This document shows, one piece after another, positions 27,814 to 41,396 of a stretch of 64,000 bases of DNA. Source of the DNA: Flavobacteriaceae bacterium (GTDB lineage: Bacteria; Bacteroidota; Bacteroidia; Flavobacteriales; Flavobacteriaceae); the NCBI GenBank assembly GCA_016744415.1, contig JADGEL010000001.1, positions 620,001-684,000 of the forward strand. Direction: 5' to 3'. Under the pieces are notes generated by a model. The model had not been told where the DNA came from, ran no database searches, and saw only the letters and a list, made by a program, of their open reading frames with translations. A program made the translations under genes and the position numbers. Position 1 is the first letter of the stretch. Every line of letters begins with the position of its first letter.

Positions 27814-27839
27814 TCAATCTAAAAGATATTAAAGATTGA
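27814..27839. promoter_or_regulatory. Inverted repeat in the leader, possible operator
   Basis: TCAATCT (27814-27820) and AGATTGA (27833-27839) are perfect inverted copies separated by 12 bases. The repeat lies between the predicted promoter and the start codon, a location suited to repression. The cognate regulator is unknown; the Rrf2 protein nearby is a candidate. Confidence 0.4.
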
Positions 27840-27852
27840 TTTTTTTAAATAA

Positions 27853-28434
27853 ATGATAATAAATAGTATCTTGAATAAAAATATTTACTACCCTCCAGGA
27901 GGCATATTATTGTGGATTATCATTTTTTTAGAATTGATAACCTTTGGGATGGCATTGGTTGCCATGGTATATTATGATACTCTAGAACCTGAAGTTTTTC
28001 ATACTTCTCGATTGCAATTAAATAGTACAATTGGAACAGTAAATACTATTTTTTTAATTGTAAGTGGTTATTTTATGGCAGTATCTGTTCGCTATTTTAA
28101 AAACAATAAAGTGAAAAAATCATCATTGTTTTTAAAACTCACCATGCTAGGAGGGCTATTATTTTTGATTTTAAAATCGTTTGAATATTCACATAAAATC
28201 GAGTTAGGATTAACAATTGGCTACAACACTTTTTATACATTTTATTGGTTGCTAACCCTCTTTCATGTAATTCATGTCATAGTAGGCTTAGTGATTTTAG
28301 TATCAGTTCATATTGGAATCAACAAGAAAAAAACAAGCACTAATATTGAAGATGTTGAAGCTAGTGCTGCCTTTTGGCATATGTGCGATTTGATTTGGCT
28401 ATTGTTATTCCCTATAATCTATTTATTGTTTTAA
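27853..28434 (+). CDS. Heme-copper oxidase subunit III family protein (NorE-like)
   Basis: The product is 193 residues with about five membrane helices. Features of the subunit III family include the opening KNIYYPPGGILLWIIIFLELITFG (residues 9-32), YYDTLEPEVFHTSRLQLN, the FEY motif near residue 113 and FHVIHVIVGLVIL near 135-148. Short five-helix members of this family are called NorE when they accompany nitric oxide reductase. No cytochrome oxidase subunit I or II is adjacent, which argues against an ordinary aa3 operon and for an accessory, NorE-like role. The next gene starts three bases after its stop and encodes the small partner. Confidence 0.75.
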   Translation: MIINSILNKNIYYPPGGILLWIIIFLELITFGMALVAMVYYDTLEPEVFHTSRLQLNSTIGTVNTIFLIVSGYFMAVSVRYFKNNKVKKSSLFLKLTMLGGLLFLILKSFEYSHKIELGLTIGYNTFYTFYWLLTLFHVIHVIVGLVILVSVHIGINKKKTSTNIEDVEASAAFWHMCDLIWLLLFPIIYLLF

Positions 28435-28437
28435 GAA

Positions 28438-28671
28438 ATGAAAAAGCTAAATATCATATTATCAGTATTAATTCTTCTAACAGTTATAGCTGCAGTTACA
28501 TCAGAATTAGAAATGAAATATGCAGTATTTGCTTTAATAGGTTTTGCTATAATTAAATTTATTGGAGTCACCTTTTTTTTTATGGATTTAAGAAAAGCTC
28601 ATACTTTTTGGAAAGTTGCAATTCTTATTTTTTTATTGATATTCACTACTTCAATCCTTTTAATAGGTTAA
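28438..28671 (+). CDS. Small membrane protein, oxidase subunit IV/NorF-like
   Basis: The product is 77 residues with three predicted membrane helices (about 4-22, 28-50 and 55-76). The segment IKFIGVTFFFMDLRKAH between helices two and three is typical of prokaryotic cytochrome c oxidase subunit IV / NorF-like proteins. It is encoded immediately after the subunit III-like gene and is probably co-translated with it. NorF helps assembly or activity of nitric oxide reductase in denitrifiers; assigning that role here is inference from family and context. Confidence 0.7.
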   Translation: MKKLNIILSVLILLTVIAAVTSELEMKYAVFALIGFAIIKFIGVTFFFMDLRKAHTFWKVAILIFLLIFTTSILLIG

Positions 28672-28734
28672 ATAAATCACAAAACAAAAATAACAGCACT
28701 GATAAATAGGTAGTTATGGTATTAGTTGTTTAGT

Positions 28735-28754
28735 AACATGATAAATGTCATCTT
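28735..28754. promoter_or_regulatory. Imperfect palindrome, possible NsrR-like operator
   Basis: AACATGA (28735-28741) and TCATCTT (28748-28754) are inverted copies with one mismatch and a 6-base spacer. The outer halves resemble the AAGATG/CATCTT ends of proteobacterial NsrR sites, but the spacing between them is 8 rather than 11 bases. It lies 67 bases before the start of the 603-residue protein gene. Confidence 0.35.
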
Positions 28755-28821
28755 GTAAAAAATTGAATCAAACTAACTTGCGGGCTTTATAAATAAGATT
28801 TAATAAGATAAATATAAATAC

Positions 28822-30633
28822 ATGAAAAAAACACATTCATTTCATATTCCAGTAATGGGAATTGGATTTACAATTGATACACCTTTAAAGGTGGCTCAAT
28901 ACGGAATGGATTCTGTAATCTCTTTGGTAGATGACATTTTACTAGAAAAATTACGAAAAATGTACAGTGAAAAATTTGAGATGCCGTATAAAGAAATCAC
29001 CAATAGGATGGATGACTTTAGAGCAAAGCGTATCACATCATATTTAAATATGATGAATGATTTAGCAACTCAAAAGTTTGAAACATTAAAGAATTCTACC
29101 CTAGAAAAAAGTAGTGAACTTAAAAATTACATCAGCATGTTACCTGATAGCTCTACGATTAAAGAGGAGTATAAAAAATTAACAGCAAAGGAAATAAGTT
29201 TTGCCGAGATCAAAAAATGGGCATCAAAAAACCTCTCAATGGGGAGTATTGATGTAAATATTATGACCAAAGTTGATAAAGATAACTACAAAAAAAGTGA
29301 GAAGTTGCCAACAGAATTTAACGATGCACACGCGGCATTGAGAGGTTTTGCAAATAGTAATTTGGCATCTTCAGTAGTTTTATCAGCTGGGATGAATCCA
29401 AGATTGTATTCGTACATCGCTCAGTTTGATGATTTCTTTCCAGATTCAAAAGGAGAGATTAAAAAGAAGATAATTTTAAAAGTTTCTGATTATCGTTCGG
29501 CTTTAATCCAAGGAAAATTTTTAGCTAAAAAAGGGTTATGGGTTTCGGAATATAGAATTGAATCTGGATTAAATTGTGGAGGTCACGCTTTTGCAACTGA
29601 CGGATTTTTATTAGGGCCCGTATTGGAAGAATTTAAACAAAACCGAAATGACTTTAAGCAATCTATCCAAGAATTGCTATACCAAGTATTAGAAAACTTA
29701 GGTAAAGTTATACCAAAAAACACAATGTCATTAGATATTACAGCACAAGGTGGTGTAGGTACCGATGAAGAGCATGAGTTTTTAATTGACCATTACAATG
29801 TGGATTCTGTTGGTTGGGGTTCTCCATTTTTATTAGTTCCAGAAGCAACAACTGTTGATAAAAAAACTTTAGACCAATTGGCAAAAGCCAAAGAAGAAGA
29901 TTTGTATTTGAGTGATATTTCGCCATTAGGAGTTCCGTTTAATAATCTTAGAAAGAATACAAAAGACATAGAAAAGGAAATTGCTATTAACAATGGTAAA
30001 CCTGGATCTGCGTGTCCAAAGAAGTTTGTTGCTCTAAACAAAGAGTTTAATGAAAAAGGAATTTGTACAGCATCTAGAAAATACCAAACTCAAAAAATTG
30101 AGGAATTAATAGCTCAGAATTTATCCTCAAATGAACATAAATTTCAATACAATAAGATTATTGAAAAGACCTGTACTTGTGTAGGTTTAGGGACTTCGGC
30201 TTTATTGGCGTATGACTTAGACACCAAAATAGAAGGCACAGGAGTTTCCGTTTGCCCAGGCCCAAACATGGCTTATTATTCTGACGTAATGAGCTTAAAA
30301 GATATCACAAATCATATTTATGGCAGAGCCAATATGATGTTAAGAAAAGATAGACCAAATATGTTTATCAAAGAATTGGATATTTATTTAGAGTATCTTA
30401 AAAATAAAATTGACGAAACAAAAGGTGCTTTAAATAGAAAGCAAGAAAAATATTTTTCAACTTTTACAAACAATTTAAAAGAAGGGATTTCTTATTATGT
30501 TGATTTGTTTGAAGACATGAAAGAAATTTCGGGTAGCATAAAAAGTAATATTTTAAAAGAATTAGAAGACAGTAAAGAAGTTTTATATATTCTAAATTTT
30601 GAATTAGCAAAGTTGAAAGCTATTCCAGTATAA
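28822..30633 (+). CDS. Unrecognised 603-residue protein with six cysteines, possible TIM-barrel flavin/Fe-S protein
   Basis: I do not recognise this protein with confidence. It has no signal peptide or membrane helix, so it is cytoplasmic. The opening (HIPVMGIGFTIDTPLKVAQYGMDSV, residues 7-31) and later GLNCGGHAFATDG (C252) and VGWGSPFLLVPEAT (about 335) resemble FMN-dependent TIM barrels such as nitronate monooxygenase or the glutamate synthase FMN domain. Five further cysteines cluster toward the C-terminus: C398, C415, C451, C453 and C478 (ETCTC-type KTCTCVG and SVCPGP). These could bind a metal or Fe-S cluster. The last 90 residues are helical. Its neighbours (NorE/NorF-like proteins, a three-Cys Rrf2 regulator) suggest a role in nitrosative or redox stress. 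Function is unproven. Confidence 0.6.
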   Translation: MKKTHSFHIPVMGIGFTIDTPLKVAQYGMDSVISLVDDILLEKLRKMYSEKFEMPYKEITNRMDDFRAKRITSYLNMMNDLATQKFETLKNSTLEKSSELKNYISMLPDSSTIKEEYKKLTAKEISFAEIKKWASKNLSMGSIDVNIMTKVDKDNYKKSEKLPTEFNDAHAALRGFANSNLASSVVLSAGMNPRLYSYIAQFDDFFPDSKGEIKKKIILKVSDYRSALIQGKFLAKKGLWVSEYRIESGLNCGGHAFATDGFLLGPVLEEFKQNRNDFKQSIQELLYQVLENLGKVIPKNTMSLDITAQGGVGTDEEHEFLIDHYNVDSVGWGSPFLLVPEATTVDKKTLDQLAKAKEEDLYLSDISPLGVPFNNLRKNTKDIEKEIAINNGKPGSACPKKFVALNKEFNEKGICTASRKYQTQKIEELIAQNLSSNEHKFQYNKIIEKTCTCVGLGTSALLAYDLDTKIEGTGVSVCPGPNMAYYSDVMSLKDITNHIYGRANMMLRKDRPNMFIKELDIYLEYLKNKIDETKGALNRKQEKYFSTFTNNLKEGISYYVDLFEDMKEISGSIKSNILKELEDSKEVLYILNFELAKLKAIPV

Positions 30634-30641
30634 CGATATAT

Positions 30642-30704
30642 AAAATTAATTCAAACAAAAAGGGGAAACACTAAATGTTTCCCCTTTTTGTTTGAATTAA
30701 TTTT
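30642..30704. terminator. Perfect 29-bp hairpin between convergent genes, bidirectional terminator
   Basis: Bases 30642-30670 and 30676-30704 are exact reverse complements separated by the 5-nt loop CTAAA. The stem contains AAAAAGGGGAAACA and its complement, giving a T-run in both directions. It separates the 603-residue protein gene from the Rrf2 gene and overlaps neither. Confidence 0.92.
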
Positions 30705-30716
30705 TTAGAAATTCCA

Positions 30717-31181
30717 TTAAGAATCTTCATTTTCAAAAAGATCTAAATCTTTTAATGAAATTACACGGTTTGTATTTTTGATTTCAACAACATATTCATC
30801 AATCGTTTTATCTCTAAAACTACTCAGAATCTTATCTTTAAAAGGAGATACAATAAAATGAACAGGGCAAGGGTTTCGATCATCGCACTTTGCTAATCCT
30901 AAAAAACAATTGTCAAATTTACTTGTTCCATCAATGCTAATGATAACATCCCAAATGGCATTTTTTCTATTTTTTGAATCAAGATAAAACCCACCATTAG
31001 GGCCTTTTGTAGAAGAGACTAATTTATCTCTTGTAAGCTGCTGTAACAATTTAGCCAAAAATGGTTGAGGCGTCTCTAGTTCTTCGGCAATGATTTTAAC
31101 TCCAATCTTATTGTCTTCGGAAGAGTTAATTGCTAAATATAAAATTGAGCGAATGGCATATTTACAAGCGTTTGATAGCAT
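30717..31181 (-). CDS. Rrf2-family transcriptional regulator, NsrR/IscR-like
   Basis: The product is 154 residues. The winged helix is at about 1-75, with recognition helix PQPFLAKLLQQLTRDKLV and wing KGPNGGFYL, both typical of Rrf2. Three cysteines, C92, C99 and C105 (C-x6-C-x5-C), occupy the position where NsrR, IscR and RsrR bind an Fe-S cluster. The protein should therefore sense NO, oxygen or cluster status and repress target promoters. NsrR is more likely than IscR because the neighbours are NorE/NorF-like and no isc/suf genes adjoin. It lies downstream of the 12-helix membrane protein gene but has its own promoter. Confidence 0.85.
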   Translation of the reverse strand: MLSNACKYAIRSILYLAINSSEDNKIGVKIIAEELETPQPFLAKLLQQLTRDKLVSSTKGPNGGFYLDSKNRKNAIWDVIISIDGTSKFDNCFLGLAKCDDRNPCPVHFIVSPFKDKILSSFRDKTIDEYVVEIKNTNRVISLKDLDLFENEDS

Positions 31182-31195
31182 AGAAAACTTTTTAA

Positions 31196-31203
31196 CAAAT
31201 ATA
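31196..31203 (-). promoter_or_regulatory. Promoter -7 element of the Rrf2 gene
   Basis: On the minus strand the bases read TATATTTG, matching TAnnTTTG, 14 bases before the start codon. Confidence 0.55.
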
Positions 31204-31210
31204 ATAAAAA

Positions 31211-31226
31211 AAGAGATTCTTGTCTT
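31211..31226. promoter_or_regulatory. Possible autoregulatory operator of the Rrf2 gene
   Basis: The imperfect palindrome AAGAGATT-CTTGTCTT lies just upstream of the -7 element, around the -33 position. Outer positions AAGAnA and TnTCTT are symmetric. This is where a repressor would block its own promoter; the match to a known site is weak. Confidence 0.3.
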
Positions 31227-31248
31227 AAACTCGGAGACTACTTTTAAT

Positions 31249-32475
31249 TTAAGATGTTTTAGGAGATTTTACTGTTTTAAAAAATTTAATTTTTAGTTGA
31301 ACCCAAAAGATTAAAATAATTGAAATCAGAAGAAAAAAACTAGCAATTGTTAAGTATAAATCAAAATTTTCAATTAAATTTTCTTTCCTCCATCGGATAT
31401 ATCCTTTGTAAAAAATAAGCCCTTCAGTTAAAAAGAACCCAATGACATATAGTGATATTGTTATTTTTGAGAGTCTAATAAACTTAAAATATTGCAAAAA
31501 CATCAACAAGGGAATACTTACAACACCTAAAAATGTCCAATGTATATAACCAATCACCAAATCTAAATTGGTGGCAATACCATCTGCAAAAAAAGGAATA
31601 GAACCAACAAGTTGTAAGCTTATTTTAATAACAAATAGGAATCCAATGAGTATTAATAAATTCAAAAATTGTTTTGAAAAAAATGAACCAAGCTTAATGG
31701 GCTTTAAGATTTTTAGAAAACACCAAAAAGAGAAGAGGTGTAAGACTGCACCTAAAGCGCCAATGATATAGAAAATGATATGGGGTTTGGCCCATAAAAC
31801 AGAAAGCGAAAATGTAAGGACTATACTTACAGTTAATAACCAATAAAATTTATTGAATAGCTTTTTTGAAACATCAACATTATGTTGCTCTAAAATGTAA
31901 AAGAAGATTCCGAAAAGCGCAACAATAAACCAACCATTGTATTGAAAGTGAAGGTAAAAATAAATAGAGGTTCGGTACCAAATGGAAGCTCCACCTAAAG
32001 TATTCATAATGATTCCTAGAGCCCATGGTCCTAAACTTGAAAGTACCATAAACCATAGCCCCACTTTAACCAACCTAAAAGAATTTGAGGATTTTTGAGC
32101 AGGTGAAATATGTTTGTTGACAAATCCAAAAAACCAATAAGATGCAAATAAAAACAGCGTAGAAAATATAATTGAGAATAAGGCATACCCAGTTATTGGA
32201 AAAGAAATTAGCATCCCAATTAAAGTAAATTGTGTAAAAAAGAATAAGCTTATATATTTTTTAGAAATTGGTTTTTCTCTTAAATAAGCATAATAAATGA
32301 GAGTTGTTAATGCGGTATAAATCCAACCTAGTAAAGCGATATGAGAATGTGTATGTACAATATGTTTAAAATTAACAGGTACATCAACCACATGAAATAG
32401 TCTTAATAACACTCCTAAAAAAGCAATGATTAAAAAGTACCCTAAGGCAATTATACTGTGATTTTTTAAATTCAA
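31249..32475 (-). CDS. Polytopic membrane protein with histidine cluster, heme-copper oxidase I/NnrS-like
   Basis: About 408 residues form roughly 12 membrane helices. Counting from the longer frame (TTG at 32499), histidines cluster in HIVHTHSHIALLGW (H46, H49, H51, H53) at the start of helix 2, with further intramembrane or edge histidines H184, H240, H254 and H320. Such a pattern suggests heme or copper binding, as in heme-copper oxidase subunit I and NnrS, but not all six canonical ligands can be assigned. The TTG at 32499 is the last triplet of a TATTTTTG promoter element, so I start at TTG 32475. The Rrf2 regulator is downstream, and a role in NO handling is inferred from the neighbourhood. 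Confidence 0.6.
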   Translation of the reverse strand: MNLKNHSIIALGYFLIIAFLGVLLRLFHVVDVPVNFKHIVHTHSHIALLGWIYTALTTLIYYAYLREKPISKKYISLFFFTQFTLIGMLISFPITGYALFSIIFSTLFLFASYWFFGFVNKHISPAQKSSNSFRLVKVGLWFMVLSSLGPWALGIIMNTLGGASIWYRTSIYFYLHFQYNGWFIVALFGIFFYILEQHNVDVSKKLFNKFYWLLTVSIVLTFSLSVLWAKPHIIFYIIGALGAVLHLFSFWCFLKILKPIKLGSFFSKQFLNLLILIGFLFVIKISLQLVGSIPFFADGIATNLDLVIGYIHWTFLGVVSIPLLMFLQYFKFIRLSKITISLYVIGFFLTEGLIFYKGYIRWRKENLIENFDLYLTIASFFLLISIILIFWVQLKIKFFKTVKSPKTS

Positions 32476-32496
32476 TGAATTGGAATTTATTAAAGG

Positions 32497-32504
32497 CAAA
32501 AATA
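32497..32504 (-). promoter_or_regulatory. Promoter -7 element of the histidine-rich membrane protein gene
   Basis: The minus strand reads TATTTTTG, an exact TAnnTTTG match. It overlaps the first codon of the longest possible reading frame, which argues for a later start. Confidence 0.5.
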
Positions 32505-32641: not shown

Positions 32642-35600
32642 ATGAAATCATTTCACATTCTTATTGCACTCCTATTTTCTGTTACTTTTTATGCACAAGA
32701 AACAGAAAGTCCGTATTTAAAAGTTCTCACCAAAAATGCTCAGATTCCTTTAAAAGAAACATCTGTTGATGTGCAAATAACAGGAATTATTGCTCATGTT
32801 AAAATTTTGCAAGTATATAAAAATGAGGGAAACACTCCTATAGAGGCTAAATATGTTTTCCCATTATCTACACAAGCTGCCATTCATAAAATGGATATGA
32901 GTATTGGAAATAGAACGATACATGCCAAGATATTTGAAAAAAACCAAGCTCAAAAAGTATATAACAAAGCTATCAAAGAAGGTAAACGAGCAGCGAAGTT
33001 AGATCAAGACCATCCAAATGTTTTTCAGATGAATGTTGGTAACGTAATGCCTAATGATGAGATAAAAATTGAGATATATTTTACTGAAATGCTAATTCCA
33101 GTTGAAGGTGAATATCAGTTTGTTTTTCCAACTGTTGTTGGCCCTAGATTTGTTGGTGAAACAGTAAAATCAGAAAAAGTGTTTAATACCCCCTACACTA
33201 AAAAGGGAGTTAATACAGTTTTCGATTTTAATTTAAATGTTTGCATTAATGCAGGGATAATGCTGCAGAGTGTTACTTCAAACTCACATAAGATTGATAT
33301 AAATTACCCAAGTGCCGAGAGTGCTGAAATTTTTTTATCAAATGAAAATAAGAACCCTTCTAACAGAGATTTTATATTGAAGTATAGTTTAAGAGGAAAT
33401 AAAATTCAGTCTGGATTATTACTTTATGAAGGAGAAAAAGAAAATTTTTTCACTTTTATGATGGAGCCTCCAGCTAAAATAGTTGAAAATCAAATTTCTC
33501 CAAGAGAATACATATTTATTTTAGATGTTTCTGGCTCTATGACAGGATATCCATTAGATGTATCAAAAAAATTATTACAAAATCTGATTGGGAATTTACG
33601 CAATACAGATTCTTTTAATATTCTTTTATTTGCTGGAGGCTCTACAATTTTTAAAGAAAAATCTGTAGTTGCTAATCCAGAAAATATTGAAAAAGCAATC
33701 AAATTTTTATCAGGAAATTTTGGAGGAGGCTCTACATATTTGCTTGATGCTTTATTAAACGCTTATAGTATTCCAAGAACAGACAAAAAGAACTCGCGTT
33801 CAATGGTTGTGATTACAGATGGATATGTGAATGTAGAAAAAGAAGCATTCCAATTAATTAAATCCAACTTACATAATGCAAACGTGTTTACTTTCGGAAT
33901 AGGCTCTAGTGTAAATAGATATATAATTGAAGGAATGTCGAAAGTCTCAAATACGGAAAGCTTTATTGCTACAAACGAAGCCGAAGCTTACGAGGTTGCT
34001 AAAAAATTTAAGAAATATATTGAGTTTCCTTTACTTACTCAAATTAATTTTAAAACAGAAGGGTTTGATGTTTATGATATTGCGCCAACAAGTATTTCGG
34101 ACATATTGGCTTCTAGGCCACTCATGGTTTATGGTAAGTGGAGAGGCAATCTAACAGGAAAAATAATTATTACAGGCAATCAAGGTTTAGAAGAGTATAA
34201 GAGTGAATATAATGTTGTAAATGGGAACTTTTCCAAAACAAATAAGGCTTTGGAATACTTATGGGCAAGGAAAAAAATTGAATTGTTAGACGATTTAAAT
34301 CTCAATTCTAAAGATTCTAAGCAGCAAGTAATCGATTTGAGTTTAGAATACAATCTATTAACAAAATATACATCATTTGTTGCAGTTGATGATGAACTTG
34401 TGAATGAAAAAGGAAATTCAAAAACTGTAAAGCAGCCATTACCATTACCTTTTAATGTTGAAAATGTTGCAGTAGGAGCATCAGCTGAAATAAATGAATC
34501 ATTTGTTGCAAGGGCACAATATACTTTAGAGTTTTCAGTAGAAAATGAAATTTCTAAAAGCGCAGAGCGAAAGTTTAAAATTTGGTTTAAAGCAAATTAT
34601 TCTGATGTAGCTTCATACTATTTAAAACATAAAGAAAGTTTAAAAATTTATTTTAATCAGTATGGAGAGTTAGATGCAGTTGAGGAAATGTACGATGGAA
34701 AATGGAAAGTAAATAAGACTATTACTACTGAGTTTTTAAAGCAAACATCTCATAAATTTTCAGGTAATACAAAATCAATGAGTATCACAGTTTATGCTCC
34801 CATAAAACCTAAAAAAGCAATAGTATTTATTACAGGAACAGATGAAGGAACTAATAACTATTTTAAAAATGCCTTGGGTTATTTTAAAAATAAAAACGCG
34901 GTAATTGTTGAAAATGTAACTTCGCTAAACAAAATTATTATATGGTTAAATAACAACTATAACAGACAACTTTATGAGGATATTCATATTGTAAGTCATA
35001 GTAATTCTTGGAGAGGAATGTCATTAAAAAATACAATTTCAGGAGAAAGAATTACAGAAGAGTCCTTAAAAAAATCAATTTCTAGAAAAGAAGTTTCAAC
35101 TCTGAAAAATATTTTTTTTGAGGAGACCAAAATCATATTTCACGCCTGTGGCCTAGGAAAAAATAAAGAGTTGATGCAATCGTTAAAAACAGTTTTCACA
35201 GCAGATTTCCCCCCAAAATTATATGCATCAAAACTCTTTAGTGTTTTTGGAGAAAATAAATCGAAGCATTATTTAGCAGATGTTTATTATGGTTATTATC
35301 CAACAGCAAATTCTCCTGGCAAAGTAGATTTATCAAAAGAGTTTAAAAAAGAATACCCAAAAACTGAGGTTAAATGGTTAGCAGCCTTATACAAAAAAAC
35401 GGAAGAACAAATAGGTGAATCTTTTTCGTATAAGTTCAATGTGCCAGTGACATGGAATATTCAATTTTTGGATTTAGAGGATATCCCGAAATTTAAAAAT
35501 AATGATGATTTATTAGATTTTATCAGTGAAAATGATAAGATGGCAAGTGAATTATATAAATTAAAAATACCAATTGAAAAATTTAGATGGTCAAGTAAAT

Positions 35601-35734
35601 CTAAAAATAATATGCTTCAGATAAAAGGAAAAGTAACTGTTGTTTGTGTGTTAAAACCTAAAATGAGTTTAGAAAACCCAAAGAACTATATGAGCCTAGA
35701 TATTAATAATTCGATGTTATACGAAAAAATTTAA
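32642..35734 (+). CDS. Secreted VIT-VWA protein with C-terminal clan-CD-like domain
   Basis: The product is 1030 residues with a signal peptide ending at FYAQ (about 19). A VIT (vault/inter-alpha-trypsin) domain spans about 25-150. A von Willebrand A domain spans about 287-460, with MIDAS residues D295-x-S297-x-S299 (ILDVSGSMTG) and VITDGYVN further on. A middle region (about 475-725) is unassigned. From about 730 a separate alpha/beta domain carries IHIVSHSNS (H786) and IIFHACGLG (C836). That is a strand followed by His-small and a strand followed by Ala-Cys, the clan CD signature of caspases, CHAT and DUF4347 domains. No sorting tail is present. The VIT-VWA part likely binds protein through metal; peptidase activity is inference. 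Confidence 0.75.
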   Translation: MKSFHILIALLFSVTFYAQETESPYLKVLTKNAQIPLKETSVDVQITGIIAHVKILQVYKNEGNTPIEAKYVFPLSTQAAIHKMDMSIGNRTIHAKIFEKNQAQKVYNKAIKEGKRAAKLDQDHPNVFQMNVGNVMPNDEIKIEIYFTEMLIPVEGEYQFVFPTVVGPRFVGETVKSEKVFNTPYTKKGVNTVFDFNLNVCINAGIMLQSVTSNSHKIDINYPSAESAEIFLSNENKNPSNRDFILKYSLRGNKIQSGLLLYEGEKENFFTFMMEPPAKIVENQISPREYIFILDVSGSMTGYPLDVSKKLLQNLIGNLRNTDSFNILLFAGGSTIFKEKSVVANPENIEKAIKFLSGNFGGGSTYLLDALLNAYSIPRTDKKNSRSMVVITDGYVNVEKEAFQLIKSNLHNANVFTFGIGSSVNRYIIEGMSKVSNTESFIATNEAEAYEVAKKFKKYIEFPLLTQINFKTEGFDVYDIAPTSISDILASRPLMVYGKWRGNLTGKIIITGNQGLEEYKSEYNVVNGNFSKTNKALEYLWARKKIELLDDLNLNSKDSKQQVIDLSLEYNLLTKYTSFVAVDDELVNEKGNSKTVKQPLPLPFNVENVAVGASAEINESFVARAQYTLEFSVENEISKSAERKFKIWFKANYSDVASYYLKHKESLKIYFNQYGELDAVEEMYDGKWKVNKTITTEFLKQTSHKFSGNTKSMSITVYAPIKPKKAIVFITGTDEGTNNYFKNALGYFKNKNAVIVENVTSLNKIIIWLNNNYNRQLYEDIHIVSHSNSWRGMSLKNTISGERITEESLKKSISRKEVSTLKNIFFEETKIIFHACGLGKNKELMQSLKTVFTADFPPKLYASKLFSVFGENKSKHYLADVYYGYYPTANSPGKVDLSKEFKKEYPKTEVKWLAALYKKTEEQIGESFSYKFNVPVTWNIQFLDLEDIPKFKNNDDLLDFISENDKMASELYKLKIPIEKFRWSSKSKNNMLQIKGKVTVVCVLKPKMSLENPKNYMSLDINNSMLYEKI

Positions 35735-37412: not shown

Positions 37413-38840
37413 CTAATTTACTTGTGTTACGCGTAAAGTGTTAACCTTTCCTTTTTCTTTAACAGGCATTGAGGTAAGATTAATTACAAAATCATCTTTT
37501 TCTAGGAATCCTTTTTCGCAAGCTATTTTATTGATTTCTTTAATTGTCGTATCTGTATCAACTAAATTATTATAGTAAAATGCTTTTACACCCCAAAGAA
37601 GGCTCAACATGTTCAAAATTCTTTTATTAGAGGTAAATGCGATAACATGTGCGTGTTTAGGTCTCCAAGCTGAAATTTGAAATGCTGTATATCCAGAATT
37701 TGTTAGTGTCGAAATTGCTTTAGCATCAATATCATTTGCTAATAAAGCAGCATGATGACAAATTGCTTTTGAGATATAGCGATCTGTTTTAATATGTGGA
37801 GCAACGCGAGGAACTTTAATAGAAGGTGAATCTTCTACACTCACAATAATATCTGACATGTGCTTAATTACATTAGCAGGATCTATTCCAACAGAAGTTT
37901 CTCCAGAAAGCATAACAGCATCAGCACCGTCCATAATTGAGTTAGCAACATCATTTACTTCGGCTCTAGTCGGCACCAAATTTTCAATCATAGATTCCAT
38001 CATTTGTGTAGCAATAATTACAGGAATTCTGGCTTGCTTAGCTCTAAGAACTAATTTTTTCTGGATAATTGGTACTTCGTTCATCGGAATCTCTACTCCT
38101 AAATCTCCACGTGCAACCATTAACCCATCACAAAAAGGAATAAGGTCATCTATGTTTTTTACAGCCTCTGGCTTCTCAATTTTAGCAATTACAGGAATTT
38201 TATGAGAAGAATGTTTTTTTATTAAATTGTGCAACATTTGTAAATCTTCACCAGTTCTAACAAATGATAATGCAAACCAATCTACCTCTAAAGTCATTGC
38301 AAAAATGGCATCTTCAATATCTTTTTCTGTTAATGCTGGTTGAGAAATATTTGTATTGGGTAAGTTTACTCCTTTTTTAGATTTTAATTCACCTCCACGA
38401 ATTACTTTAGTTGTAACTTCTGTCTTGTTGTCTGATTTAAGAACTTCAAACATTAATTTACCATCATCAACCAAAATGTTTTCTCCTACTTTTACATCTT
38501 GAGGAAATGTTTGGTAAGTCATAAAAGCTCTTTTACTGTCTCCAGTACATTTTTCTGTAGTAAATATAAAGGTATCACCATTGGTTAGATGTGCATCTTT
38601 CATGACTCCTACACGTAATTTAGGTCCTTGTAAATCTGCTAAAAGAGCAACATTTCTACCTGTTTCTTCATTCAATTCGCGAATGATTTTCACCTTTTTA
38701 GTCACATCACTATAATCGGCATGTGAAAAATTGATTCTAAAGACATTTACTCCTGCAAAAATCATTTTTCTTAAACTCTCTTTATCGCTACAAGCTGGCC
38801 CTAGGGTGGCAACTATTTTTGTTTTTTTGTATAATGGCAT
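37413..38840 (-). CDS. pyk: Pyruvate kinase
   Basis: The product is 475 residues, a full-length pyruvate kinase converting phosphoenolpyruvate and ADP to pyruvate and ATP. It opens with KTKIVATLGPACSDKESLRKMI, then shows FRINFSHAD and ALLADLQGPKLRVG. The active-site signature is IPVIAKIEKPEAVKNIDDL, followed by DGLMVARGDLGVEIP and MDGADAVMLSGETSVG. The gene follows the IPExxxVDY gene with two bases between, a pairing common in Flavobacteriia as far as I recall. It probably ends the acpP-fabF-rnc-IPExxxVDY-pyk run of minus-strand genes. Confidence 0.96.
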   Translation of the reverse strand: MPLYKKTKIVATLGPACSDKESLRKMIFAGVNVFRINFSHADYSDVTKKVKIIRELNEETGRNVALLADLQGPKLRVGVMKDAHLTNGDTFIFTTEKCTGDSKRAFMTYQTFPQDVKVGENILVDDGKLMFEVLKSDNKTEVTTKVIRGGELKSKKGVNLPNTNISQPALTEKDIEDAIFAMTLEVDWFALSFVRTGEDLQMLHNLIKKHSSHKIPVIAKIEKPEAVKNIDDLIPFCDGLMVARGDLGVEIPMNEVPIIQKKLVLRAKQARIPVIIATQMMESMIENLVPTRAEVNDVANSIMDGADAVMLSGETSVGIDPANVIKHMSDIIVSVEDSPSIKVPRVAPHIKTDRYISKAICHHAALLANDIDAKAISTLTNSGYTAFQISAWRPKHAHVIAFTSNKRILNMLSLLWGVKAFYYNNLVDTDTTIKEINKIACEKGFLEKDDFVINLTSMPVKEKGKVNTLRVTQVN

Positions 38841-38842
38841 AA

Positions 38843-39304
38843 TTAAAATATTAAAAAATCCTTCGATTTTAATTCCGACGGATTGATACTATATGATGTT
38901 ATTATTTGATGAATATCATTCAGTTTTTCTACTATTTTTTTGATTTCGTCTGGCAAAGTGCCTCCTTCAATTTTTAAAAAAAAATCTACTCTTTTCTTTT
39001 CAGGGATTAAATAGATCGTTGTGCTATATGAAATATTGTCAGAAAATAAATTAGCATTTGCGACTTGCGTATAATTTCCAATAAATTTATTAGAAATTAA
39101 GAAGTTATCTTGTTGTTTACTTTCGTCAAAAAACTCATATATTGAAAAAGCTGCATTGTTATTTTTGAAATCTAAATGCAGATGATGTTTAGAAAATGAC
39201 GTATTTAAATTTTTGTTTAAAAGATATGCTAAACGATAATCTTCTTCAGAAGTATGAATTCCAATTAATGAGTAATCTTCTAATTCTTCAAGTTCTAAGA
39301 GCAT
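38843..39304 (-). CDS. IPExxxVDY family protein
   Basis: The product is 153 residues. It contains YLIPEKKRVDFFLKIEG (about 100-116 of the chosen frame), which fits the IPExxxVDY motif that names this Bacteroidota family (here VDF). The start SLIGIHTSEEDYRLAYLLNKNL is also typical. Function is unknown. I use the ATG at 39304 rather than 39322, because a TAAATTTG promoter element (39327-39334) ends only five bases before the earlier one. The gene sits between rnc and pyk and is two bases from pyk. Confidence 0.85.
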   Translation of the reverse strand: MLLELEELEDYSLIGIHTSEEDYRLAYLLNKNLNTSFSKHHLHLDFKNNNAAFSIYEFFDESKQQDNFLISNKFIGNYTQVANANLFSDNISYSTTIYLIPEKKRVDFFLKIEGGTLPDEIKKIVEKLNDIHQIITSYSINPSELKSKDFLIF

Positions 39305-39326
39305 AACTACAATTAAATGCAAGCTG

Positions 39327-39334
39327 CAAATTTA
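39327..39334 (-). promoter_or_regulatory. Promoter -7 element for IPExxxVDY-pyk
   Basis: The minus strand reads TAAATTTG, matching TAnnTTTG, in the 76-base gap after rnc. It would let pyk be expressed apart from the acpP-fabF-rnc genes. Confidence 0.45.
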
Positions 39335-39398
39335 CGGATTGTTTTGTTATCTTTTGGTGTGATATGTGTAAAAACACAGGACGATAATTGTATATAAC

Positions 39399-40136
39399 TT
39401 ACTTTTTGGATATTTCTTTTTGATTTGCAAAATAGGCTCGCTTTGCTGCAATCTCTTCGGCTTTTTTCTTTGAAGTGGCACGACCTTTGCCAATTAATCT
39501 ATCTTCCAAAAACAATTTAACACTAAAATGTCTGACACTATCATTACCGGTATCATCATAGACTTCAAATCCAAAAGTTTTCTTTTCTTTCTGACACCAT
39601 TCAATAAATAAACTCTTATAACTCGTAACCTTTCCTTCTAATTTTGCAATATCTACATAAGGAAGAATGACTGCTTTATGAACAAATTTTTTGCAGTATT
39701 TATAACCTCTATCTAGATAAATTGCCCCTATTAAGGCTTCAAATATATTACCGTTAATATTTTCTCCAAACTTAGATCTAGACACATTACTCTTTACAAA
39801 TCTGATAAGATTTAAATCTCTTCCCAATTCATTGAGATGTTCACGACTTACTATTTTAGATCGCATTTGAGTTAAATAACCTTCGTTACCAGACGGAACT
39901 TTTTTAAACAAGTAAGAGGCGATAACTGCATCTAACATCGCATCACCCAAAAACTCTAATCGCTCATAATTTCTTGGGTTTCCAGAGTCATCTAGTTCTT
40001 TAATAGATCTATGTACAAAAGCTTTGCGATACATACGTAGATTGTGTGGAGAAAACCCTAATAGTAACTTCATTTCAGCGTAAAAATCCTCATCCTTTTT
40101 TGAAAGAGGCTTTATTATTTTACGAATAAAATTCAT
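39399..40136 (-). CDS. rnc: Ribonuclease III
   Basis: The product is 245 residues. The RNase III catalytic signature NYERLEFLGDAMLDA lies at about 56-70, with acidic residues E61 and D65, and the second acidic motif GNIFEALIGAIYLDRGY is near 130. A double-stranded RNA-binding domain follows (about 165-240, KLEGKVTSYKSLFIEWCQ ... GRATSKKKAEEIAAKRAYF). It processes rRNA precursors and structured mRNAs. It starts 9 bases after fabF stops, forming the usual acpP-fabF-rnc order. Confidence 0.95.
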   Translation of the reverse strand: MNFIRKIIKPLSKKDEDFYAEMKLLLGFSPHNLRMYRKAFVHRSIKELDDSGNPRNYERLEFLGDAMLDAVIASYLFKKVPSGNEGYLTQMRSKIVSREHLNELGRDLNLIRFVKSNVSRSKFGENINGNIFEALIGAIYLDRGYKYCKKFVHKAVILPYVDIAKLEGKVTSYKSLFIEWCQKEKKTFGFEVYDDTGNDSVRHFSVKLFLEDRLIGKGRATSKKKAEEIAAKRAYFANQKEISKK

Positions 40137-40145
40137 ACTAAAAAA

Positions 40146-41396
40146 TTAATCTAATTTTTTGAACAGAACACAAGCATTGTGCCCTCCAAATCCAAAGGTG
40201 TTACTCATCGCAACTTTTACATTGCGTTTTTGAGGTTTGTTTAGAGTAAGGTTAAGTTTATTATCAATAGCATCATCATCAGTAGAGTGATTGATAGTTG
40301 GTGGGATAATACCATTTTTAATAGACAGAATAGAAGCAATCGCTTCAATTGCACCAGCAGCACCCAATAGATGCCCTGTCATTGATTTTGTTGAGTTGAT
40401 GTTTAGTGTATAAGCATGCTCTCCAAAAACTTCGGTAATTGCTTTTGTTTCGGCAATATCACCTAATGGGGTTGAAGTACCATGAACATTTACAGCATCA
40501 ACATCTGTTGGTTTTAAATTAGCATCTCTTAAGCAGTTCAACATCACGTTTTTAGCACCCAATCCTTCAGGATGTGGAGCTGTAATATGATGTGCATCTG
40601 CAGATAAACCTCCACCGCCAACTTCGGCATAAATTTTTGCACCACGTGCAATAGCGTGTTCGTATTCTTCTAAAATTAATGCTCCAGCACCTTCTCCTAA
40701 AACAAATCCGTCACGATTTTTATCAAATGGTCTTGATGCCGTTTTTGGATCATCATTTCTGGTTGATAAGGCATGCATTGCATTAAACCCTCCTATTCCA
40801 GCCATAGTAACAGCTGCTTCTGAACCACCTGTAACAAACATGTCAGCTTGCCCTAATCGGATGTAATTATAAGCATCGATAATAGCATTTGCTGAAGACG
40901 CACAAGCTGATACCGTTGTAAAGTTTGCACCTCTAAATCCGTATTTGATAGAGATATAACCAGGGGCAATATCTGCAATCATTTTAGGAATAAAAAAAGG
41001 ATTAAATCTCGGAGAGCCATCACCATTAGCAAAATTCAACACTTCATTTTGAAACGTTTCCAATCCGCCAATTCCTGCACCCCAAATAACACCAACCCGA
41101 TCTTTATCTAATTTCTCCAAATCAAAACCTGCATCTAAAACAGCTTCATCAGCGGCAACCATAGCATACTGAGTAAATTTATCCATTTTACGAGCATCTT
41201 TTCGATTGATAAAATCAGTGACCTCAAAGTTTTTTAATTCACAAGCAAATTGCGTTTTGAATTTAGAAGCGTCAAAATGAGTTATCGAATTTGCACCGCT
41301 AACACCATTAATTAGTCCGTTCCAATATTCTTCAATATTGTTACCAATAGGGGTTAATGCACCTAAACCTGTTACTACAACGCGTTTTAATTCCAT
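40146..41396 (-). CDS. fabF: Beta-ketoacyl-ACP synthase II
   Basis: The product is 416 residues, full length. The Cys-His-His catalytic triad of chain-elongating condensing enzymes is present: C165 (TVSACASSANAI), H305 (NVHGTSTPLGD) and H342 (STKSMTGHLLGAAGA), with K337. The glycine-rich end NTFGFGGHNACVLFK is typical of FabF. It elongates acyl-ACP with malonyl-ACP in fatty-acid synthesis. It lies just after acpP, its carrier-protein substrate, with a hairpin in between. Confidence 0.97.
   Translation of the reverse strand: MELKRVVVTGLGALTPIGNNIEEYWNGLINGVSGANSITHFDASKFKTQFACELKNFEVTDFINRKDARKMDKFTQYAMVAADEAVLDAGFDLEKLDKDRVGVIWGAGIGGLETFQNEVLNFANGDGSPRFNPFFIPKMIADIAPGYISIKYGFRGANFTTVSACASSANAIIDAYNYIRLGQADMFVTGGSEAAVTMAGIGGFNAMHALSTRNDDPKTASRPFDKNRDGFVLGEGAGALILEEYEHAIARGAKIYAEVGGGGLSADAHHITAPHPEGLGAKNVMLNCLRDANLKPTDVDAVNVHGTSTPLGDIAETKAITEVFGEHAYTLNINSTKSMTGHLLGAAGAIEAIASILSIKNGIIPPTINHSTDDDAIDNKLNLTLNKPQKRNVKVAMSNTFGFGGHNACVLFKKLD

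Follow-up and report, generated by a model that had tools for sequence, protein, structure and literature searches.

How does a bacterium come to carry the helper genes of a nitric oxide (NO) reductase in a stretch of DNA without the reductase itself, and what is the role of the two unnamed proteins beside them? The question is raised by five neighbouring genes in a 64,000-nucleotide stretch from a Flavobacteriaceae bacterium (contig JADGEL010000001.1, positions 620,001 to 684,000; "the window" means this whole stretch), whose genome of 3.13 Mb is 98.4% complete. The genes encode a NorE-like and a NorF-like protein, a 603-residue protein with six cysteines (P603), a regulator of the Rrf2 family and a 416-residue protein (P416). 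An earlier note had read these five open reading frames (ORFs) from the letters, and all five are present, with Pfam matches to COX3, COX4_pro and Rrf2 in the first, second and fourth. The note had also joined them into one NO-detoxifying set. That proposal was not supported, since NorC, NorB, NorQ and NorD are encoded elsewhere, P603 is commoner than NorB, and the operator of P603 is common to oxidase genes. We hold it probable, with some reserve, that the five genes are scattered parts of a denitrification and anaerobic-growth set of Flavobacteriaceae that is found whole in Flagellimonas, with NorE and NorF as helpers of the NO reductase cNOR and with P416, P603 and Rrf2 in the roles proposed below. 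We regard the genes as serving NO respiration and anaerobic life in accessory and regulatory roles, not as a self-contained system of NO detoxification.

The absence of a NorB/NorC or oxidase core, recorded in the earlier note, is true of the window and not of the genome. Outside the window the genome has three genes of the COX1 family. One of them, at C2:783192, encodes a NorB of 445 residues, with NorB of Pseudomonas aeruginosa as its best match among solved structures (E 2.4e-109). NorC is encoded before it (E 3.9e-25), and after it come NorQ (CbbQ/NirQ/NorQ), a VWA protein that we read as NorD, and a repair protein of the Ric type, which scores 152 bits and so stays under the cut-off of 204.7. 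Upstream of norC are nrdD and a small gene, which we take to be nrdG. That norC-norB-norQ-norD, nrdD and the gene of the Ric-type protein all lie on contig C2 outside the window supports the reading of a scattered set. The class III ribonucleotide reductase beside norCB (L108:4655-6472) is of the Bdellovibrio type (TIGR02827).

A COX3-type protein and a small COX4-type protein in tandem are the arrangement of NorE and NorF, and their distribution follows that of the reductase. Of 120 family genomes sampled, 13 have NorE orthologues (E<1e-30), and all 13 also have NorB. The two genes lie within 20 kb of each other in 12, the lone exception being the window's genome, where norE-norF is about 135 kb from norCBQD. 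Among the nor clusters mapped in relatives, most have NorF after NorE. The earlier statement that NorE and NorF accompany NO reductase is thereby borne out. Because NorE tracks NorB so closely, the window pair is, as judged from sequence, the usual pair of cNOR helpers relocated away from norCBQD: the families, their order and their co-occurrence with norCBQD are the same as in other cNOR systems, and only the distance differs. As in other denitrifiers, NorE and NorF would help to build or run cNOR. In one relative (G061, L104), NorE is broken by in-frame stops, yet norC, norB, norQ and norD are present.

Both unnamed proteins are widespread, and their association with NorB differs in strength. 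NorB occurs in 19 of the 120 family genomes. P416 has homologues in 44 of them, 18 of the 19 with NorB against 26 of the 101 others (Fisher p 1.4e-8; the p values given here ignore relatedness among genomes). P603 is found in 40, including 13 of the 19 with NorB (p 9e-4), so 27 of the 40 P603 genomes have no NorB match. With homologues in so many genomes, P603 and P416 are genuine genes rather than chance frames. P416 and NorB lie within 20 kb of each other in 6 of the 18 genomes having both. In a second sample of 296 genomes from the phylum, P603 occurs in 112, P416 in 41 and both in 31 (p 1.5e-7), and the two lie within 20 kb in 8 of these 31, the window's genome included, where about 0.3 would be expected. 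Co-occurrence outside this genome, which the earlier note had named as a check, was therefore found for NorE and P416 with NorB and for P603 with P416. Relatives of P603 number at least 590 stretches in GTDB contigs, the best 80 of which include Bacteroidales, Chlorobiota, Ignavibacteriae and Calditrichota. Zobellia is another carrier. In one genome (G007, L119), P416 adjoins a 761-residue NorB-like protein of the size of a quinol-type NO reductase, and the same genome has no match to the cNorB of the window's genome at E<=1e-40.

P416 of the window matches nothing in Pfam (E<=1) or NCBIfam. A model predicted from nine sequences (predicted local distance difference test, pLDDT, 85.8; predicted template modelling score, pTM, 0.88) has twelve long helices, and a Foldseek search with it returned CcoN of cbb3 oxidase (E 4.7e-6), NorB (E 6.3e-5) and other subunit I structures. 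The predicted fold is that of the 12-helix subunit I, which confirms the earlier suggestion of a heme-copper relative at the level of the model. Profile searches point the same way in part. Among 19 members, five have weak COX1 matches (best 7.1e-6) and six match DUF2871 (best 0.005), whereas NnrS (PF05940), the other candidate profile of the earlier note, is matched by none of the 19 at E<=1 and is absent from all eight families found.

The histidines of P416 tell which parts of a heme-copper site may remain. H49, H51, H53 and H320 are invariant in 19/19 members and H184 is kept in 18/19. A global profile alignment of P416 to NorB and CcoN together scored 59.6, against 2-7 for reversed and 20-47 for rotated decoys, and pairs H49, H184 and H320 with H53, H187 and H329 of NorB. 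In this alignment, which is of low identity, H238, H239 and H327 of NorB face S231, L232 and Y318. Across the members, the columns facing H238 and H239 hold S/A/F/G and L/T/I, and the column facing H327 holds Y or F in 19/19. H53 and H329 of NorB are presumably the ligands of the low-spin haem, and H238, H239 and H327 are taken to be ligands of the metal and the high-spin haem. The low-spin haem histidines of helices II and X are thus found as H49 and H320, both with NorB and CcoN together and with NorB alone, and only H184 remains, in the low-identity alignment, of the histidines for CuB/FeB and the high-spin haem. P416 seems to have kept the low-spin haem pair and lost most of the catalytic centre; it also carries three histidines in an HxHSH motif in helix II. 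Because most ligands of the binuclear centre are lost in the alignment, P416 is probably accessory and a poor candidate for a "minimal" reductase; the earlier note had proposed a minimal heme-copper partner.

P416 would then be a membrane protein with the fold of a heme-copper oxidase that binds haem and serves NO and oxygen respiration. That it protects or services these processes in the manner of NnrS, and does not reduce NO, is to us a serious possibility that falls somewhat short of an even chance. NnrS is a membrane protein that contains haem and copper. The likeness would be one of role only, with P416 found in the company of Ric and Rrf2 and its members lacking the NnrS profile match. 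The nnrS gene is named in denitrification regulons (PMC1274295). A search for dyads upstream of P416 found nothing above background.

P603 is equally without a sequence family. The window protein matches no Pfam family at E<=1, PF03060 included, and its single NCBIfam match (PRK00420, 27.9 bits where the cut-off is 162) is taken as chance. One sequence search of the PDB gave nothing and another gave four weak, unrelated matches. For 56 members, the 25 Pfam families listed out of 67 comprise coiled-coil-like and other chance-looking families and do not include PF03060; nor is P603 among the matches when the whole genome is searched with PF03060. Its structure was more informative. An AlphaFold2 model from 56 sequences (pLDDT 86.6, pTM 0.90) has FabX of Helicobacter pylori, an enzyme by which unsaturated fatty acids are made, as its best Foldseek match (E 1.5e-9), followed by PfaD, FabK and nitronate monooxygenases (NMOs), and is predicted to be a flavin mononucleotide (FMN) TIM barrel of the NMO/FabK/FabX superfamily, with a helical insertion of about 100 residues following the second strand. 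Of the two checks on an FMN barrel, fold comparison thus gave a match, whereas the profile comparison named in the earlier note was weak.

The conserved residues agree with this prediction. H255 and all six cysteines (252, 398, 415, 451, 453 and 478) are invariant in 111/111 distinct P603 sequences, as are most glycines of the FMN loop. The presumed catalytic histidine follows a pair of glycines (C252-G-G-H255), as in the superfamily, and together with N146 in a VNIM strand, E247, QGGVGT (309-314) and GWGS (331-334) presumably fits the NMO plan. PfaD, FabK and nitronate monooxygenase have the GGH motif and the predicted barrel in common with P603, which differs from them in its invariant cysteines and in having no PF03060 match. 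FabX binds FMN, has H182 as its catalytic histidine and carries a [4Fe-4S] cluster after the barrel, on C300, C304, C308 and C320; it is described as the only characterised member of the family with an iron–sulfur (Fe-S) cluster (PMC8626469). Both proteins have a histidine in a GGH loop, then the FMN loop and then cysteines after the barrel, which in P603 number five, with C252 in addition beside the presumed catalytic histidine. FabX has about 365 residues against 603. The likeness is one of fold and motifs only. With its cysteines as the ground for the Fe-S part, P603 looks like a flavin/Fe-S oxidoreductase, in keeping with the earlier guess of a flavin or Fe-S reductase.

When this enzyme may be needed is suggested by a palindrome, ATGAYN4RTCAT, whose only exact site in the window lies upstream of P603. 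The site precedes 40 of 111 distinct P603 genes and 28 of 1483 unlabelled genes, from which 93 further genes with too short an upstream region were dropped. The pattern read backwards, as a control, precedes 0/111 and 1/1483. With up to one mismatch the counts are 62/111 and 99/1483. Before removal of five duplicate proteins, 43 of 116 P603 upstream regions had the site, at a median of 76 bp before the start. It also occurs upstream of norC (11/23), Rrf2 (10/32), nadA (10/37), Ric (4/21), nirK (3/13) and the divergent neighbour c22 of P603 (6/20, partly the same stretch as that of P603); norE (0/16) and P416 (2/28) stand at the low end. Some unlabelled genes with the site resemble those of CcoS and HemN.

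In the window's genome the pattern occurs 42 times and its backward control 22 times. Three of the 42 are the P603 site and a pair in the region of norC; the other 39 were extracted, 18 of them between called ORFs. As with P603, the palindrome precedes norC and the cbb3 (cco) operon, where it stands within a spurious reverse frame, 66 bp upstream of a CcoS-like gene and ccoN. Intergenic sites also precede a Sdh_cyt-like and an indolepyruvate oxidoreductase alpha-like gene (both under cut-offs), as well as OmpW, sulfur transport and rhodanese genes; several others have no clear link. These data suggest that P603, norC and the cbb3 operon belong to one oxygen-responsive regulon and, because of the 5-4-5 architecture and the targets, that a regulator of the CRP/FNR type may act at the palindrome. 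Since the operator is common to an oxidase and other genes of anaerobic metabolism, and P603 is commoner than NorB, low oxygen, and not NO, is indicated as the signal for P603.

The Rrf2 protein was considered as the binder of this palindrome and set aside, as the site also stands before the cco operon and metabolic genes, and the motif differs from the NsrR consensus. The consensi published for HcpR, NnrR and NsrR, as given in PMC1274295, all differ from it. Rrf2 of the window is above the NCBIfam cut-off for rrf2_super, and its cysteines C92, C99 and C105 are invariant in 19/19 relatives. It shares the family and the three cysteines with NsrR and IscR but reaches the equivalog cut-off of neither (29.5 bits against 182 for NsrR). 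It probably senses Fe-S or NO status and would control its neighbours.

What P603 does can be stated only with caution. It is probably a flavin/Fe-S oxidoreductase made under anaerobic conditions, and it may be an equivalent of FabX that needs no oxygen. Its flavin, its Fe-S cluster and its regulator would follow from the predicted fold, the invariant residues and the shared palindrome. P603 would be soluble, with an FMN TIM barrel and an Fe-S centre, and induced at low oxygen through the palindrome. In the manner of FabX and the anaerobic relatives of FabX, it would pass electrons between FMN and its cluster as it desaturates acyl-acyl carrier protein (acyl-ACP), and would thus supply unsaturated lipids when oxygen-dependent desaturases cannot act. 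This role is favoured by the predicted fold, by cysteines of an Fe-S-like kind, by the operator and by the association with enzymes that need no oxygen; the window's genome also has two genes of the FA_desaturase family, the oxygen-dependent type, which speak for it too. P603 mostly stands alone with varied immediate neighbours (of 116 rows, 4 have NorF before it, 4 have NrdD before it and 20 have nadA after it), and in some other genomes it lies near nrdGD, nirK, cbb3 and nos genes. FabX-like desaturation is a tentative proposal, and we would sooner expect it to fail than to hold.

Several results weigh against the readings favoured so far. P603 and FabX are only about 15% identical, with a template modelling score of 0.40 by query and 0.64 by target and a root-mean-square deviation of 8.2; the cysteine spacing of FabX is not that of P603; and the hidden Markov model (HMM) comparison of the P603 profile with NMO proteins (HMM-HMM) was weak (27%), with the FMN-phosphate region alone aligned. 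No lipid partner recurs beside P603: among 56 hand-picked neighbours, no Pfam family occurs more than twice in the 25 families listed of 92. The exact palindrome is missing from 71 of 111 P603 upstream regions, 21 of the 39 extracted genomic sites (the cco site among them) fall within called ORFs, and the palindrome has no assigned transcription factor, the genome not having been searched for CRP/FNR regulators. P603 occurs in only 13 of the 19 NorB genomes, within 20 kb of NorB in 2 of these 13, and within 20 kb of P416 in 3 of the 25 family genomes having both; a genome of the same genus (G113) has no match for NorB, P603 or P416. For P416, the alignment to NorB alone scored 24.1 and pairs H49 and H320 but not H184, leaving H187, H238 and H239 of NorB in gaps, and that to CcoN alone gave no usable pairing.

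Other roles for P603 fare worse. It might act on a nitrogen-oxide product of denitrification (a nitronate, a nitroalkene or a nitrosated metabolite), like nitronate monooxygenases: 2-nitropropane dioxygenase has the same fold (2gjl, E 6.0e-5) and P603 keeps company with nor, nirK and nos genes, but the 27 of 40 P603 genomes without NorB and an operator common to the cco operon and to genes with no nitrogen-oxide link make this improbable. To the same low degree P603 may be an alternative enoyl-ACP reductase of the FabK/PfaD kind that does not desaturate. PfaD and FabK are among its best structural matches, but the genome already has a PF03060 protein with an EAGGH motif, presumably FabK-like, and FabK uses NAD(P)H, whereas an Fe-S cluster is described for FabX and the six cysteines of P603 are invariant. 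A partnership with NadA and NadB in NAD synthesis at low oxygen is less probable again: nadA is the next gene after P603, in the same direction, in 20/116 rows and has the same operator in 10/37, but 19 of these 20 cases have one gene order with the same divergent neighbour, and the window's genome has P603 without a detectable NadA. The least probable reading, hardly tenable, is the single unit with P416 as a minimal heme-copper NO reductase core, P603 as its reductase, NorE/NorF and an NO-sensing Rrf2, for which speak the fold of P416, the flavin/Fe-S look of P603 and the 8 of 31 phylum genomes with P603 and P416 close together (though 3 of 25 in the family), and against which stand NorCBQD in the genome, the residues facing H238, H239 and H327 of NorB, and P603 without P416 in 81 of 296 phylum genomes.

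The preferred reading of a scattered set is illustrated by two Flagellimonas contigs (L164 and L176), which carry nrdD, norC, norB, nirK, an FGE-sulfatase-like gene, a SCO1-like gene, norQ, norD, norE, norF, P603, Rrf2 (other strand), nadA and nadB, then P416 and Ric (other strand). The label of norC was checked in L176, those of nirK, the next two genes and nadA in L164, where nadB was checked as a FAD protein; the remaining genes were labelled through similarity clusters. The window retains norE-norF-P603-Rrf2-P416 of this stretch. If the Flagellimonas order is ancestral, as we infer, the window lineage may have lost nadAB, because relatives carry this pair between Rrf2 and P416 and the window's genome gave no NadA (quinolinate synthase) in a search that was positive in 12 of 14 control genomes. 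The genome probably has another route to NAD.

Table 1. Positions of the five genes and associated sequence elements in the window
Feature	Position	Strand	Remarks
norE, NorE-like COX3-type, 193 aa	27853-28434	+	Pfam COX3 E 4.2e-11
norF, NorF-like small COX4-type, 77 aa	28438-28671	+	Pfam COX4_pro E 4.2e-8
Operator-like palindrome ATGATAAATGTCAT (ATGAYN4RTCAT)	28738-28751		84 bp 5' of P603 start
P603, 603 aa, predicted flavin/Fe-S oxidoreductase	28822-30633	+	predicted FMN TIM barrel of NMO/FabK/PfaD/FabX kind
Long inverted repeat between convergent P603 and Rrf2	30644-30704		read directly from the letters
Rrf2-family regulator, 154 aa	30717-31181	-	C92-x6-C99-x5-C105; Pfam Rrf2 E 2.2e-21
P416, 416 aa, predicted 12-helix heme-copper-fold membrane protein, degenerate catalytic site	31249-32499	-	start codon uncertain

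The inverted repeat between P603 and Rrf2 (Table 1) is likely a terminator serving both directions. An end of the P416 gene at 32475, as the earlier note had it, is inconsistent with 416 residues. Because most relatives of P416 begin several residues further in than the window ORF, its true start is probably a few codons after 32499 and the protein shorter. A single norEF-P603 operon was considered and dropped, as a 150-bp gap holding its own palindrome separates norF from P603. Another inverted repeat, TCAATCT...AGATTGA, lies directly before norE (27814-27839). Beyond P416, a VIT-VWA protein (32642-35734) resembles a marine sortase-target family (374.7 bits against a cut-off of 551.65) and has a weak DUF4347-like stretch toward its C-terminal side. 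Genes for pyruvate kinase, ribonuclease III and FabF at 37413-41396, about 7-11 kb from P603, look like a housekeeping locus and are not counted as evidence.

Among the papers listed in literature searches, titles and opening lines of abstracts gave no account of P603, P416 or the ATGAYN4RTCAT operator in Bacteroidota. Two widespread unnamed protein families are here given a fold prediction, a set of invariant residues and a context, regulatory or genomic. It is doubtful that the widest picture holds as a whole. In it, P603 would found a Bacteroidota-wide family of FMN/Fe-S enzymes that make acyl double bonds without oxygen and are expressed together with cbb3 oxidase, denitrification genes and class III ribonucleotide reductase, and would thereby supply the missing step by which bacteria otherwise dependent on oxygen-using desaturases make unsaturated lipids anaerobically; P416 would belong to a separate family whose heme-copper fold has passed from catalysis to haem-based sensing of NO or oxygen, or to protection. 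P416 would offer a natural example of how the fold of a respiratory oxidase can lose its catalytic metal site and still be tied to NO respiration, as its presence in nearly all NorB genomes of the family suggests. P603, if FabX-like, would account for the unsaturated lipids of facultatively anaerobic Bacteroidota in the absence of oxygen.

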